64,000 nt of DNA from Pseudophaeomoniella oleicola (lineage: Eukaryota; Ascomycota; Eurotiomycetes; Phaeomoniellales; Phaeomoniellaceae), in contig QWDQ01000003.1 of assembly GCA_003868215.1 (NCBI GenBank), forward strand, positions 558,001 through 622,000, in the 5' to 3' direction. Positions 6,298 through 54,407 of this stretch are shown piece by piece. The stretch's first letter is position 1. Every line of letters starts with the position of its first letter. Both the position numbers and the translations under genes were made by a program. The notes beneath the pieces are model-generated. The model was not told the origin of the DNA. It ran no database searches and saw nothing but the letters and a program-made list of their open reading frames with translations.

Positions 6298-9200
6298 ATG
6301 GATTCGCACCACCCTATTTTGCGGGCGGTGGATGTGGAAGGTCGCTGGACAGGCCGCCGCGAAGACACAGCGAATCTCGATTTGACCTTCACAGTCTATG
6401 GCATGCCAAGAGCCTCCATAGATCTCATTGGTATGATACATAGTCACGCCGAAATCGTTGGGATATGTGAGCCCTGTGACCCTTTCACACATGGAAGCCG
6501 TTGTGGTTCAACGACATCAGCAAAGCTGCTGGCAGCGTACCCATTCGAGCTCCTCTTTGAACAGGATAAGAAGGTCAATCATGAAACACAGGAACAATCT
6601 AGAGAGCCCGAGACCTCACGCTTAGACCTTCATTCTGAAAAGACAATATCTTCAGAGTGGCAGCACTTCGGAAGCAACATCAATGGCGCAGACATCACGA
6701 CTAGTCCCAAACCGCCCAAAAGACCCTTTCACGCCGAAGACGATGCTGACAATCCTACTATGGTCTCCGAAGAGGCATTTTCACCACCAATGGTGGCCAT
6801 AGAGAGATTGAGCGTAAGCAAGAGGCAAAAGGTTGCTCCAAGAGGGTTCATAGACACAGTAGATACCGAGAAGTCTGATACACCAAAGCGCGTTCGCAAA
6901 CCCCTCCCAATACCGGAAAGACCACCTTGGCGGAGCCCTGGTCTCGTAGAGCGTGTTGGTCGCGGAAGAACAAAATTTGGACATCCCGATGGAAAAGAAA
7001 GAAAGATCTCACACTCAGCCGATGCCCGGTTTCAAGGGAAGAAGACAACACAGCACAATCACAAGTCGAACCACACTGAGCGAAAACCCTTGTCTACTCA
7101 TTCCTGGGACGATGCTTTATGGGGAGCTCCTCGAACTTTCACCTCGGAAGAGCGCAAAATTCGACTGCAATCTTTCGATACGCCAGTTTCTCAGAGGAGT
7201 CATAGCCCATCGAGATCAGTCATCCACGCTCAGGAAGCGACAGATACAGATCGTTTCGTCGAATTATGGCTAGAGAGAGGACGTGAGGAGATTTCCTTGG
7301 AGCAGCCAGAATCAATTCATTCACAACCCTCCACGCGAAGCATCTGGAAGGAAGATTTGGTTGTGATGGCCAATCAGACACAATGCATGTCTGACTCTGA
7401 CCGAGAAAGACTGGAACATCAGCTGTCAAGGAATGTCGAAAAGCTCACGTTAGACTCCCAGGACAGCTTTGATATGTTTCAACCTCTCAAGGGGCACCTG
7501 GGGCACCTCAACGACATCGACAGCCACAAAGGCGTCTCAGACCCACACTATGCAAGCGAAGGCGCACAAGATCTAGGAAAAGACAAACCCTTCATCATAG
7601 TTGACCAAGGACGTGCGCGGTTGCAATTTATGGGTGCATACCCCCGCGATGTCAGTGTCCATATCAAAGTCAAAGCTCATGTTGCTGAGCACGCCGAAGG
7701 GGGTTTGATCCTTGACATCCCAGGGTTACCTTTCCAAGCAGGGCAGCTCCATGGCGATATTGGGTGGTACGGTTTCACAATCGTAGAAGACTTTATGGGA
7801 ATCTGGCACAACAGAGACAAGATAAAATGTATCAAAGAGAACAGTGTCACTGAGTTCCAGGATGGACGGACTGCGGGTAGGTTCTCGCCAGATAGGCCAC
7901 TTCAGTTACGTTTCTTGTTGTTTGAGGAAACCCGGGTACTGAAGGATGGCCAGTACGAGTTAGATTGGACTTTGAACACGGGAGAAGATGCGACCAGTGG
8001 ATGCACAATAGTTACGGCAACCTGCTCCATTCGAGTCACGAACTTTATGTTCTGGTCTGAGAATGTCAGCTTTCACGTCTGGATCTGCGGAGGGCCGACA
8101 GACACGAACATACACGCGTTCCTTGCCCCCGGATCTCGTCGATTACAGCTCCCTAGGTGCTATACTCGACAATATCACAAGTTGAGGATTGACATATCTT
8201 GCCCCACCACCGAGATATCCAAACCATTCGTGGTGACGTGGGAAGCTCAAGTACCTCCACGGGGACTTCCTTATTCGGTCACCTCAAATATCTCGAGTAT
8301 CAATGATCTCTCTTCCCTCAGCCCGGAAAGTACTCAATTCGGCAAGGATGTCCATGAACTGCGAAAGCCACTGAAAGGGTTGAGCGGTTCCGGGACAGCT
8401 CTACAACCCACAACCATCACACAAAACAAGAACGTCGATATATTGTGGGATGATGCATCCTGGTATGATATTGGAGAGCCATTGCTGGACACGGGCATGA
8501 ACTTTTATGCTGAGTCCAAGAATCCACCTCTTCATATCAAAGGCCCCGAGTGTTCATACATCGGGAAGTCACCGGTCAATTATGACAAGGCTGCGAAAGC
8601 TATAGCAGAGGATCGGCTTGGTCGTGGCCTTGCTCTTGAGCCGCCAGATGACTCCCATGGGTTACGCAAATCACTGTCCATGGTTGGCAAATCGAAGCAT
8701 CCGAAAGAAGGTGAAAAGATCCATAGAGCTGATGAGCCTGGCAGTATTACTGGAGTGGCAAGTGCCCGGGGTGATAGCCAGGTCGTACGTCTCCGTAACG
8801 ATCATCGGCAGCGGTGGGCGTCCTTGACCACGGTCTTGCACGATATCACTACGTGTGCATACCAATGGGTCAAGAAAATGATCAGGGCCGTCAACCGTGC
8901 CTGTTTATTGTGGGCTGTTGTTATGATATGGGCGATGTGGGTGACCTTTTCCATTCTCGAACCTGAATACAGCAAAGCATGGTCTCAGGGGATTCTGGAA
9001 AGCGCAGTCAGCCGTGTCCAAGCCTTTGATTACCGAGTGAACAGTGCAGATTGGATCCCTATTATGGACGTCCTTGATTGGTACCATAAGACAGTGCCTG
9101 TTCAAGAACCGCACGAGACACTCTTTGTTGATAACGACTTTGCACAGAAGCCATATGCCTTGAGTACTACAGGATTGTGCAATGCGTATGAGGAGAGGCA

Positions 9201-9366
9201 GAACGATAGAATTGGAGGAGCACCGGGCACGATTGCGGCGTCATCTCCAGCGATTGGTCACCTTTTCGATGCTGAACAGGCTGATCAAGAACCTTGGCTG
9301 GGGAGGTTGAGAGACAAGATTGACACACTTCTCGGATGGCCCGGCCCGTTGGATGAGAGAGGTTAG
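6298..9366 (+). CDS. Large conserved-type hypothetical protein with one C-terminal membrane segment
   Basis: A single uninterrupted frame of 1022 codons starts at an ATG preceded by in-frame stops. I do not recognise a family. The N-terminal 110 residues (FTVYGMPRASIDLIGMIHSH and following) look globular. Residues about 110-430 are charged and Ser/Pro-rich with basic patches, probably disordered. Residues about 435-665 look like an ordered beta-rich domain (LQFMGAYPRDVSVHIKVKAH; FHVWICGGPTDTNIHAFLAP). One hydrophobic stretch, residues about 868-890 (ACLLWAVVMIWAMWVTFSI), is a likely membrane anchor, followed by about 130 residues. There is no signal peptide. Placement as a nuclear-envelope or ER tail-type protein would be inference only. 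The absence of introns over 3 kb is unusual for this window, though the GBD/FH3 gene shares it. Confidence 0.85.
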   Translation: MDSHHPILRAVDVEGRWTGRREDTANLDLTFTVYGMPRASIDLIGMIHSHAEIVGICEPCDPFTHGSRCGSTTSAKLLAAYPFELLFEQDKKVNHETQEQSREPETSRLDLHSEKTISSEWQHFGSNINGADITTSPKPPKRPFHAEDDADNPTMVSEEAFSPPMVAIERLSVSKRQKVAPRGFIDTVDTEKSDTPKRVRKPLPIPERPPWRSPGLVERVGRGRTKFGHPDGKERKISHSADARFQGKKTTQHNHKSNHTERKPLSTHSWDDALWGAPRTFTSEERKIRLQSFDTPVSQRSHSPSRSVIHAQEATDTDRFVELWLERGREEISLEQPESIHSQPSTRSIWKEDLVVMANQTQCMSDSDRERLEHQLSRNVEKLTLDSQDSFDMFQPLKGHLGHLNDIDSHKGVSDPHYASEGAQDLGKDKPFIIVDQGRARLQFMGAYPRDVSVHIKVKAHVAEHAEGGLILDIPGLPFQAGQLHGDIGWYGFTIVEDFMGIWHNRDKIKCIKENSVTEFQDGRTAGRFSPDRPLQLRFLLFEETRVLKDGQYELDWTLNTGEDATSGCTIVTATCSIRVTNFMFWSENVSFHVWICGGPTDTNIHAFLAPGSRRLQLPRCYTRQYHKLRIDISCPTTEISKPFVVTWEAQVPPRGLPYSVTSNISSINDLSSLSPESTQFGKDVHELRKPLKGLSGSGTALQPTTITQNKNVDILWDDASWYDIGEPLLDTGMNFYAESKNPPLHIKGPECSYIGKSPVNYDKAAKAIAEDRLGRGLALEPPDDSHGLRKSLSMVGKSKHPKEGEKIHRADEPGSITGVASARGDSQVVRLRNDHRQRWASLTTVLHDITTCAYQWVKKMIRAVNRACLLWAVVMIWAMWVTFSILEPEYSKAWSQGILESAVSRVQAFDYRVNSADWIPIMDVLDWYHKTVPVQEPHETLFVDNDFAQKPYALSTTGLCNAYEERQNDRIGGAPGTIAASSPAIGHLFDAEQADQEPWLGRLRDKIDTLLGWPGPLDERG

Positions 9367-9765: not shown

Positions 9766-9774
9766 AAAAAAAAA
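9766..9774 (-). terminator. RNA polymerase III terminator (T9)
   Basis: A run of nine T on the minus strand begins 10 nt past the discriminator base of tRNA-Ile, the expected position and form for a Pol III stop. It supports transcription of the tRNA gene from the minus strand. Confidence 0.8.
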
Positions 9775-9783
9775 GGTGAATAT

Positions 9784-9910
9784 TGGTCCCTGCAGTGCTC
9801 GAAACTGCGACCTTCACGTTATTAGCGTGACGCTCTACTAACGAAATTGTTAGTCGTTGTGGATGGAAGAATATAAATTGGAAGACATACACCAACTGAG
9901 CTAAGGGACC
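9784..9910 (-). tRNA. tRNA-Ile (anticodon AAU) interrupted in the D-loop
   Basis: Reading the minus strand from 9910, the acceptor arm GGTCCCT pairs with AGGGACC, the D-stem GCTC with GAGC, the anticodon stem TCACG with CGTGA around the loop CTAATAA (anticodon AAT), and the T-stem GCAGT with ACTGC around TTCGAGC. The discriminator is A and CCA is not encoded. Between the D-loop bases GGT and TAGAGC sit 53 extra nt (9838-9890); without them the tRNA is 74 nt with the common D-loop AGTTGGTTA. There is no intron at the canonical 37/38 site. Box A (TAGCTCAGTTGG) is intact and lies just before the insert. Box B is slightly off (GTTTCGAGC) because pair 53:61 is U:A instead of G:C, though pairing is kept. 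A T9 terminator follows. It could be a working gene with an unusual intron or a copy damaged by insertion. Confidence 0.88.
9838..9890 (-). other. 53-nt intron-like insert in the tRNA-Ile D-loop with spliceosomal signals
   Basis: The insert begins GTATGT, contains GACTAACA with the branch-type A about 13 nt from the end, and ends TTAG. Length, donor, branch and acceptor all match ordinary mRNA introns of this window: the phytanoyl-dioxygenase-family gene has a 59-nt intron with the same GACTAAC, and donors GTATGT occur at 49120 and 54714. Eukaryotic tRNA endonuclease cuts next to the anticodon, so removal of this insert would need another route. Spliceosomal removal is my inference. Confidence 0.7.
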
Positions 9911-10177
9911 CCCGGTTTAATGTTCAACGTTCAACGCTGATAGGCTGAATTTGTGGGAGAAAAGTTGGTGGAAGTGGTATATATTTGGTAAGGGAAATTT
10001 GTGGTGACTGAAAAGTGACTCCAAAAAAGGCCCGCGTCTCCATTTTAGCGTAACGTTTAGTTCACTGTTACTCCGTATTTTGTAGCTTCATCGTTTTCAA
10101 TTGTTGTCGACACGCCCAACGTCAGTGTCAACTACCACGGTAGCAGTAGCAGTATTAACGGCAGCATCAGTAGCAGA

Positions 10178-10735
10178 ATGTTTGCAGGCAGGTCGTCTGC
10201 TGTACATATCATCCGCCGCTATGCCTCCTCCAATTCCTCACCCTCACTCTCACAGAGGCACCAAGCCACTGCTGTGCCTCTGAAAAGGGAAGCTCCAGCT
10301 TCCGCATCGATCTGGAACGCTTTCAAAACCGCCCTCGGCCTCCAAGTAAAACATACACCGGTCGCCGGCTTTCAACCTGCCCGCTTCAATGTCGTCAACA
10401 ATCCATACCGCGCAAAGAAGACATGGCCCCCTGACTTCGACCGTTTATCTCCACGGCACCGATTTCACTTTGAGAAGACGTACAGGCGGAGGGCGAAGTT
10501 GAAGTACACCAATCCTGGATGGAGACGCGGCGTCACGATCGTGCAAAACACTGCTATTGCCTTGACCATCATTTATTTTGTCTTCTTTTTGGAGGTCGAA
10601 GGTGAGGAAGGTAGAAAAGGTCTCACGCCGTTCCAAGGAATCAGAAACTACGTCTTTGGAAGCCTGGAAAGTGCATTTGGTGAAGAAAACAAGAGCAAGA
10701 CAAAGGTGTCCGCTGTCCAGACTGGGGAGAAATGA
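10178..10735 (+). CDS. Small mitochondrial-type single-pass membrane protein, unknown function
   Basis: 185 codons without introns. The first 30 residues are rich in Arg, Ser and Ala without acidic residues and include IIRRYASS, which fits a mitochondrial targeting sequence. A basic block follows (YRAKKTWPPDFDRLSPRHRF; EKTYRRRAKLKYTNPGW), then one hydrophobic segment at about residues 118-136 (VQNTAIALTIIYFVFFLEV) and a hydrophilic tail of about 48 residues. The pattern resembles small fungal inner-membrane proteins of respiratory-complex or ribosome assembly, but I cannot assign a named family. The start is the first ATG that gives a presequence. An overlapping frame at 10101 is less likely. 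Confidence 0.75.
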   Translation: MFAGRSSAVHIIRRYASSNSSPSLSQRHQATAVPLKREAPASASIWNAFKTALGLQVKHTPVAGFQPARFNVVNNPYRAKKTWPPDFDRLSPRHRFHFEKTYRRRAKLKYTNPGWRRGVTIVQNTAIALTIIYFVFFLEVEGEEGRKGLTPFQGIRNYVFGSLESAFGEENKSKTKVSAVQTGEK

Positions 10736-52499: not shown

Positions 52500-54407
52500 C
52501 TATGACTCTGTAGCGGCCTTCTTCTTCTTCTTCTTTTCCGACTTTGACACTTCACCGTCTTCTTCGGCCCTCTTTCTCTTCTTGCCATCATCATTAACTT
52601 TGGCAGCCTCCTTCTCTGCCTTCTTCTTAGCCTTCTTGATATCTTTCTTGGATATTGACACAGGGGTTCCGTCAGCTTCGAATTTAATCTCGCCACGCTC
52701 CAACTTCCTCTTGTACCTCTTAACACTTAAGCCAGCCTTTGCGGCGAGTTCCTCCAGACTGACATGACCATTCGAAACACCATTGGCTTGTGGCTTCTTA
52801 GAAGTCTTTGCAGGAGTAGGTTCTTCATCATCGGAGTCAGATTCCTCGTCAGACTCCTCAGCCCCATTCATTGTCACATCTTCGGGCGATGCTTCCTTGA
52901 CCTCCTCGACGAGCTTCTTCGATTCCTTCTTCGCCTTCTTGTCTTTCTTTGCCGATGTAGATGGCGTGGCCTCAGTGGCAGGAGCTTCGTCACCACCAAG
53001 ACCATCTGCATCAGGGTTGTATTTCCGGGCTTCCTTGATCTCCCACTTCTTTGGCTGTGGGGTTGCGGCACCAGCTGGAGCAATGGCAACGCCACGAGGT
53101 TTCAGTGGTTTGCCTTCCATCGCCGCGAGCTTTCTCTCTAGGTTAGATCGTGCCTCCAATCCGAGAGCTGCTTTCTCCTCTTCTGGGATATTCGCTTCGT
53201 CTTCACCCCAGTCCTGTAGTGCGTCCACTCTCAAGCCAAGCGCGGCTTTGGCAGCCAGGATTCTTGCCATCTTACCTTTGTTCTTGCCAGTTGCTTGACC
53301 AATCAGCGAGGCATGGTAGATGAGACCATACTTTGGGGTGTCATGTTTAGTCTTTAATGCTCTGAAGAGGGCCTTCTCAGCTCCTAGGATTTGAATTGTA
53401 CTTGCTGGACTCTTTGAGAGATTGAGCAAGCTGCCGGCATGAGCGATAAGGCGGGCACCGACCAGATCGCCAACCAAGGCCGTCAAGTTCGGGGCTATGG
53501 CTGTCATTCGAGCACTGAGATAGCTTGCAAGTTGACTCCTGTATTCAGTGAAACCGACAACTTGTTCTGCTAGGGCTTGGATGTTTTCCAGATCCTCCTC
53601 GGTGATCTCGGTACCCATGGACCTGTCAGCAGCATGTTTAACTGCTGTCTCGATTTCTTCCGGGAGGATATCTGCAAGGTCGACCGTTTCCCAATTTGTT
53701 CGCATTCCCATCTTCAAGACAACCTTGGCATAAGCCAGATTATCATTGAGAATCTTTGCCATTTCTGGAAAATGCCAACCGTACCACTCCTTCACTCTCA
53801 TGGCATATGTATTCAACTCCTTGTCGAGATCATCCAGGAGAGCAATGGCCTGTACGATCATAGTATCAATTTTGTCCGGAGAAAACTTCAATTTGTGTCT
53901 AGCAAGAGAGTGTGACAGGCCCAGAGACATCGTGTTCACATCTTCAGGAACTAATCCAGGAATCAGCGATGGAAGATGTGCTCTGATGGCGCGGTAAAGA
54001 TCATGTGTCGATGAATCGGCAATTGCTTTGATCTCGAGGCCAGGAAGCTTTCCAATGGCCGTTCCAAGCTTCGCATCCGCGACTGCAAGTGACACCTTCT
54101 TCTCATCCTTAATTTCGTCAAGCAGAGATGCAAGACGTTGAGTGACTTTCCCCTCAACAATTGCAGCAGCTTCTTCCAATGCAGCGGCCGCTGAATCGAA
54201 TTTTTGGAAACTCTTGAGCTTGAGACTACAGGTACATTGTTAGCTAGGCTTCTTAATATTCCGACCAATGGTATTTTCATACAGATTTGTAACGCCTTCT
54301 GCAGTAGATGTCTTTTCTGCCAAATCTTCTTGCTTCAACAACTTTTTGTCCTTGGCCTTGAGAAGCGCATAACCGGCCGACGTCTCGGTCAAGACGAAAA
54401 GAGTCAT
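52500..54407 (-). CDS. nop58: Nop58, core protein of box C/D snoRNPs
   Basis: Model complement(join(52500..54225, 54283..54407)), 616 residues. It opens [20 protein letters not shown], continues [20 protein letters not shown] across the intron, and has the NOP5 N-terminal, coiled-coil and Nop domains ([40 protein letters not shown], then [17 protein letters not shown]). The tail from about residue 470 is Lys/Glu/Asp-rich (KKE repeats) and ends in a Lys cluster. Nop58 binds the C'/D' side of box C/D snoRNAs with Nop56, Snu13 and fibrillarin and is needed for rRNA 2'-O-methylation in the nucleolus. The 57-nt intron may carry no snoRNA. The gene diverges from vma6. Confidence 0.97.

Follow-up and report, generated by a model that had tools for sequence, protein, structure and literature searches.

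Inserts resembling spliceosomal GT-AG introns in at least eight tRNA genes of the fungus Pseudophaeomoniella oleicola

Introduction

The default position of eukaryotic tRNA introns is 37/38, and to our knowledge, all known tRNA introns are either cut by a protein endonuclease or self-splicing. A 2026 review defines tRNA splicing as the work of enzymes distinct from the spliceosome (PMC13149111). A tRNA-Ile(AAU) gene of Pseudophaeomoniella oleicola raises the question of whether this division is strict, as the original prediction placed in its D-loop a 53-nt mRNA-type intron that might be spliced from a Pol III transcript. We addressed this question in the 64,000-nt stretch of DNA carrying the gene (C36:558001-622000, the window) and in the 26.1-Mb assembly of 112 contigs. 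From the sequence it is highly probable that the 53 nt are a U2-type (GT-AG) spliceosomal intron interrupting a nuclear tRNA gene, and that this fungus has at least eight genes of this kind.

Results

An interrupted tRNA-Ile(AAU) gene in the window

The coordinates, strand and motifs of the predicted gene were all reproduced (Table 1), including the order GTATGT...GACTAAC...TTAG within the 53 nt at 9838-9890. The locus comprises a full tRNA distributed over the two sides of the insert, splice signals of the mRNA type, and Pol III-type boxes with a terminator. The unspliced gene was not recognized as a tRNA by ARAGORN, with introns allowed or not, and the whole window yielded no tRNA gene by ARAGORN and no match to the Rfam tRNA model at its cut-off; a permissive Rfam search scored the locus at 20.7 bits against the cut-off of 29. 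In contrast, the joined form was called tRNA-Ile(aat), and its stems of 7, 4, 5 and 5 bp formed 21/21 pairs, bearing out the claim that all of them pair fully once the insert is left out. The joined D-loop had the predicted reading, AGTTGGTTA, and the anticodon loop in exon 2 was CTAATAA.

The promoter elements of the gene gave a mixed picture. The A box was intact, and the B box carried T53 and A61 in place of G53 and C61. The G53-C61 pair is nearly universal in tRNAs, making T53-A61 odd both for a working tRNA and for a B box. When the insert sequence was shuffled, GT..AG ends appeared within 3 nt of the joins in 20% of cases, and together with a branch motif in 7%, so that the Ile gene by itself constitutes weak evidence for an intron. 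An ORF at 6298-9366 and an apparent gene start near 10178 (by eye) both lie on the strand opposite to the Ile gene. A protein search found no relatives of the protein at 6298-9366; elsewhere in the window, positions 52500-54179 encode the Nop58 protein. Its best matches reached 92% identity, and the 120 matches listed, out of 8000, included Fonsecaea, Endocarpon, Cladophialophora, Exophiala and Pyrenula, which we read as placing the fungus among eurotiomycetes near the Chaetothyriales, Verrucariales and Pyrenulales.

Table 1. Coordinates and sequence features of the interrupted tRNA genes and of the U6 gene (numbers without a contig are window positions; for the eight tRNA genes, the description gives the Sprinzl site of the insert, its length, its 5′ hexamer and its branch motif).
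Feature	Location	Strand	Description
tRNA-Ile(AAU) gene in two parts	9910-9784	minus	20 nt + 53-nt insert + 54 nt
Ile exon 1	9891..9910	minus	20 nt; 5′ strands of acceptor and D-stem, first part of D-loop
Ile insert	9838..9890	minus	53 nt, GT..AG; D-loop, site 20/20a
5′ splice-site-like motif	9885..9890	minus	GTATGT
Branch-site-like motif	9849..9855	minus	GACTAAC; A at 9850 as branch nucleotide, 12 nt from the final base of the insert
3′ splice-site-like motif	9838..9841	minus	TTAG
Ile exon 2	9784..9837	minus	54 nt; remaining D-arm, anticodon arm, T-arm, acceptor 3′ strand
Presumed A box, from the A-box consensus	9892..9903	minus	TAGCTCAGTTGG; intact, close upstream of the insert
Presumed B box, from the B-box consensus	9795..9805	minus	GTTTCGAGCAC; T53 and A61
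Pol III terminator-like run	9766..9774	minus	nine T, 9 nt past the gene
TATA-like stretch (by eye, putative)	9978..9986	minus	AAATATATA; about 67 nt upstream of the gene
tRNA-Leu-AAG	C91		15/16; 61 nt; GTTCGT; TGCTAAC; also 17-nt intron at 37/38
tRNA-Phe-GAA	C36:747050-747340		16/17; 81 nt; GTAAGT; AACTAAC
tRNA-Lys-UUU	C85		19/20; 60 nt; GTATGT; TATTAAC
tRNA-Ile-AAU	C36 (window)	minus	20/20a; 53 nt; GTATGT; GACTAAC
tRNA-Gln-CUG	C61		23/24; 60 nt; GTACGT; TACTAAC; also 19-nt intron at 37/38
tRNA-Pro-UGG	C1		24/25; 51 nt; GTGAGC; TACTTAC; also 13-nt intron at 37/38
tRNA-Trp-CCA	C22		26/27; 68 nt; GTAAGT; TTCTAAT; also 12-nt intron at 37/38
tRNA-Arg-ACG	C29		32/33, anticodon loop; 51 nt; GTAAGT; TACTAAC
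U6 gene in two parts	C32:203080-203235 (locus L169, 1501-1656)	minus	GAAGATTAG; 56-nt insert GTTTGG..TGCTAAT..CTAG; CATGGCCCC

The original prediction also called for a count of uninterrupted Ile(AAU) genes. The joined Ile query had a single further match in the 26-Mb assembly, an intact gene at C40:164312-164385, so that one such copy was found and not many. The two genes differ at 15 of 74 bases, with 88% identity over the 55 bases aligned. Eight stem pairs differ between them, six on both sides and two on one, and none of the eight is broken, which makes a damaged copy less likely. These changes follow the mode expected of a tRNA under selection, although part of them may predate the insert. 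The fungus may have two working Ile(AAU) genes, the split one and the intact one, but the presence of the latter makes the product of the split gene less certain.

Seven further interrupted tRNA genes

The assembly was searched for a T-arm and acceptor combined with an A-box start around any insert, and neither GT nor AG was required. All 46 tRNA family matches at E<=0.001, obtained by scoring 63 of 781 candidates, were examined; 15 of these 46 lie on C110, a small contig with closely packed tRNAs that looks mitochondrial, and were excluded from nuclear counts. A B-box pattern gave 65 matches compared to 48 for its control, and all 65 were examined. Patterns consisting of a B box and a T run gave 173, 38 and 75 matches compared to 82, 21 and 24 in the controls, and 36 T-arm/acceptor-like stretches were picked from them by eye, covering the first 100 of the 173.

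This material revealed interrupted genes for Lys-UUU, Gln-CUG, Leu-AAG, Phe-GAA, Arg-ACG, Trp-CCA and Pro-UGG, bringing the apparent number of interrupted tRNA genes to at least eight, of eight isoacceptors. Lys, Gln, Phe, Arg and Trp came from the search; Leu was noticed by eye and then confirmed, and Pro was listed by the search and read by eye. The B boxes of the seven genes other than Ile were selected by the B-box patterns. T runs of at least five residues lie downstream of all eight genes, four of which (Phe, Arg, Trp and Pro) were found with patterns requiring such a run, and TATA-like stretches were noticed by eye, without a chance comparison, upstream of several.

At the joins that restore the gene, all eight inserts read GT..AG and measure 51-81 nt. 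The branch A, taken from the motif nearest to YTNAY in a zone of 7-35 nt, lies 11-13 nt from the last base of the insert in every case, and five of the eight contain an exact CTAAC; in random 60-mers of the window, the branch motif was present in 17% of draws and CTAAC in 0.9%. Three inserts have weaker signals: GTTCGT in Leu, GTGAGC with CTTAC in Pro, and TTAAC in Lys. Placement of the join is single for five inserts, with two options in Lys and Trp and three in Leu. Past these signals, the inserts compared by eye have little in common, except for the first 11 bases, GTATGTCTTCC, which are common to the Ile insert (window 9880-9890) and the Lys insert (L075).

None of the eight inserts uses position 37/38; their sites, which we assigned from the joined sequences, range from 15/16 to 32/33. 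Every site falls either in the interval separating the A and B boxes or where the A box ends, with the Leu and Phe inserts inside the A box, in a search that was blind to sites before position 14 and within or after the T-arm; this arrangement may reflect promoter constraint. Four of the genes, Gln, Leu, Trp and Pro, carry a second intron at 37/38, and a second copy of Leu-AAG (L055) has a short anticodon-loop intron only.

With the inserts left out of the sequence, all eight genes gave tRNAs. The joined forms were read by ARAGORN as the expected tRNA with the expected anticodon in 8/8 cases, and formed 164 of 168 stem pairs with U33 present throughout; Lys-UUU has one acceptor mismatch and pairs 3 of 4 in its D-stem. 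In contrast, among the unspliced sequences, with anticodon-loop introns allowed, Ile, Gln and Leu were missed and Lys, Phe, Trp and Pro were misnamed; only Arg was called correctly, its insert being taken as a tRNA intron.

Significance of the splice signals

Among the 42 other distinct nuclear tRNA or tRNA-like sequences, 33 had an intron called by ARAGORN, and one of these 33 (33 nt, L155) read GT..AG compared to 8/8 inserts (Fisher 9e-8); the ends of the 33 are approximate, since in our reading some are miscalls (L019, L063, L133, L135, L142 and others). The tRNA sequences gathered included none for Asp or Tyr. In shuffled inserts, GT..AG within 3 nt of the joins together with a branch motif appeared in 0.6-7% per gene, the product being about 5e-15 if independence is assumed. 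A strict detector accepted no gene in 312 kb of reversed sequence, nor in any of three shuffles. Applied to the real sequence, the detector accepted eight loci, namely Ile, Gln, Leu, Phe, Arg, Trp, L133 and L162; Lys and Pro were missed because its settings do not cover their branch motifs or the Lys acceptor. The cuts in L133 and L162 were alternative ones, and we read both as ordinary anticodon-loop introns.

An A box followed by GTATGT was not enriched genome-wide, with 65 matches compared to 77 for the reversed-pattern control, and the 46 of these 65 that were examined included Ile and Lys as the only tRNA genes.

The same signals in protein genes and in U6

Codon usage alone was of no use for finding introns, giving none at first and later 22 and 5 candidates that lacked intron-like signals, and was abandoned for a signature method. 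In 257 kb, the signature GT[AG]NGT..CTRAY..YAG was flanked by ORFs of at least 60 codons that it joined in 21 of 108 matches, compared to 8/174 and 4/102 for scrambled signatures; judging by these controls, some of the 21 are due to chance. Being chosen by signature, the 21 show its use in protein genes and not the full range of introns. They measure 47-88 nt, 7-27 nt separate the branch A from the end, and seven of them begin with GTATGT. The 51-81 nt of the eight tRNA inserts fall within this length range, which was itself bounded by the signature and length limits of the selection.

The single match to the U6 family above its cut-off was likewise split (Table 1). The branch A of its 56-nt insert lies 13 nt from the last base, and this gene is a further case of the known class of fungal U6 introns.

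Interrupted genes without an intact copy

A DNA search of the assembly with the joined Phe, Trp and Arg-ACG queries found one gene each, the interrupted one. A fungus is not viable without cytosolic tRNA-Phe or tRNA-Trp. Because no place other than the interrupted gene was found, removal of the insert from these three is probably essential. Intact near copies should have been detected, since a search of this type picked up the Ile paralogue, which is 88% identical over 55 bases; it is possible that intact copies have diverged beyond the reach of a DNA search or lie in an assembly gap. A scan for fungal contaminants with the tRNA-Phe anticodon arm matched 22 prokaryotic records, from bacterial and archaeal genomes, and none in viral contigs.

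Discussion

A model for removal of the inserts

The simplest account of these genes would be a spliceosome able to process Pol III precursors, with introns having reached tRNA genes in the way they reached U6. The gene would be transcribed by Pol III and the insert removed from the precursor by the nuclear spliceosome, as with the pre-U6 intron; the joined RNA would then fold as a tRNA, and in the four double-intron genes the tRNA endonuclease would presumably act last, cutting the 37/38 intron. We consider it likely, with less assurance than for the nature of the Ile insert, that this amounts to a second tRNA splicing pathway, in which, in this lineage, the spliceosome is obligatory for eight or more Pol III pre-tRNAs, among them the only Phe, Trp and Arg(ACG) found, and precedes the endonuclease. 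The finding of eight interrupted genes supports the proposal of the original prediction that an mRNA-type intron in a tRNA gene might be spliced from a Pol III transcript. Several points count against this reading. An uncapped transcript with a first exon of 15-31 nt would be an unusual substrate for the spliceosome. The Arg insert occupies an anticodon-loop location at which ARAGORN already accepts introns, the inserts of Leu and Phe interrupt the A box, the signals of Leu, Pro and Lys are weaker, an A box followed by GTATGT is not enriched, and the long tRNA-like locus L019 has no GT-AG signals. T runs and B boxes of several genes were also among the selection criteria, and the Ile gene combines T53-A61 with an intact paralogue.

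Alternative explanations

Non-canonical tRNA introns are familiar in another form, the bulge-helix-bulge (BHB) type; the red alga Cyanidioschyzon merolae and nucleomorphs have such introns in the D-arm and at other sites (PMC4090602, PMC3978253). If the inserts were of this type, the tRNA endonuclease would excise them and tRNA ligase would seal the exons, and the many 37/38-type introns of this fungus as well as the location of the Arg insert agree with such an origin. Yet the endonuclease needs no GT, no AG and no near-fixed branch motif, all of which are present in 8/8 inserts, and GT..AG ends were found in just one of the 33 other called introns. BHB scores at the joins were 5-7 of 10 compared to shuffled means of 5.2-6.8, a weak test in which 27 canonical introns scored 6.8 compared to 6.4. 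Taken together, these results make a BHB origin very unlikely. Production of the tRNAs from Pol II transcripts, with ordinary Pol II introns and later release by RNase P and RNase Z, would account for both the cap and access of the spliceosome, and fits the TATA-like stretches seen upstream of several genes by eye and without a chance comparison; T runs of at least five close downstream of 8/8 genes, partly by selection in four of them, speak against it and leave this origin fairly improbable.

At the Ile locus, a surplus tRNA-Ile copy with an insertion that is never processed would explain why an intact Ile(AAU) gene exists on C40, why the split copy lacks G53-C61, and why the unspliced locus does not pass ARAGORN and Rfam. 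A pseudogene would hardly be expected to retain 21/21 stem pairs with eight changed and none broken relative to the intact copy, or an intact A box and T run, and we therefore judge it an improbable, if somewhat more credible, explanation for this one locus. It cannot account for the class as a whole, because seven other genes have similar inserts and three of these tRNAs were found nowhere but in the interrupted gene. An assembly or mis-binning artefact could be suspected from an assembly in 112 contigs of unstated completeness, but the eight loci are spread over seven contigs, 108 kb to 1.2 Mb in size, and follow one intron grammar, which renders this source barely conceivable. Spliceosomal introns in Pol III-transcribed tRNA genes thus best fit the combined evidence.

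Relation to known introns

The canonical fungal introns at 37/38 are present in this genome, in 33 other called cases and in the four doubly split genes, and the eight inserts differ from them in position, length and signals. The D-arm and other inserts of C. merolae, nucleomorph and archaeal tRNAs resemble ours in affecting several genes, some with multiple introns; the C. merolae and archaeal introns are described as being of the BHB type and cut by the endonuclease (PMC4090602, PMC3978253), whereas the inserts described here carry GT, branch and AG signals with no BHB excess in what is a weak test. A parallel is the fission yeast U6 intron, which is of the mRNA type, lies near catalytic nucleotides and is thought to derive from reverse splicing (PMC10484740). 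Fungal U6 introns share with the present inserts the mRNA-type GT-AG structure in a Pol III transcript; U6, unlike tRNAs, is a part of the spliceosome, and here eight tRNA genes are involved, four of which also carry a 37/38 intron. Bhattacharya and colleagues reportedly described spliceosomal introns in the nuclear rDNA of ascomycetes, many of them lichen-forming. Those introns, too, are short, of the GT-AG type, and found in related fungi outside mRNA genes, but their hosts encode Pol I rRNA and not Pol III tRNA. The present inserts would be a known class of intron in a new class of host gene.

If this reading is true, two splicing worlds would meet on one RNA, translation would become directly dependent on the spliceosome, and the substrates of the latter would extend to Pol III transcripts that are short and uncapped and have first exons of 15-31 nt. 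As unrelated tRNA genes are hit at different sites, the genes also offer a test case for intron gain by reverse splicing. Introner-like elements are a source of new introns in fungi; the Ile insert with its flanks matched only itself, with no second match in the genome.

None of the literature matches listed, from a search with preprints and most subscription journals outside its scope, described a nuclear tRNA gene with a spliceosomal intron. The Endocarpon genome report gives 72 tRNAs predicted with tRNAscan-SE (PMC3897900), and the available description of tRNAscan-SE 2.0 presents its search for non-canonical introns for archaea. Because tRNA finders can miss such genes, the class could sit unseen in other sequenced fungi.

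Other loci noticed during the search

Several further loci came to light. A tRNA-like sequence GCCCAAG..CTTGGGT with an A box, T-arm and T run (L019, C21 about 299886-300049, minus strand) is about 90 nt too long and has no GT-AG signals; removal of single stretches to leave 70-76 nt gave no convincing tRNA and no GT..AG cut. Another sequence (L078, C91:166050-166450) resembles the tRNA-Lys(CUU) of L047 up to the T-arm and has the same anticodon-loop intron with a different acceptor 3′ strand, and by eye it is likely a pseudogene. Two tRNA-Ala(AGC) genes about 390 bp apart (L156 and L157, C42:130570-131260), one of them with a 17-nt ARAGORN-called intron, perhaps record the recent appearance or disappearance of a canonical intron. 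Finally, three related stretches of more than 200 nt (L134, C21:298750-299040; L139, C38:143060-143350; L144, C63:87850-88140) carry the B box GTTCGATCC, a 3′ T run and a start that by eye resembles an A box. For these stretches, Rfam at E<=0.1 returned only a sub-threshold bacterial family, on L134, and they perhaps form a family of Pol III noncoding RNAs.
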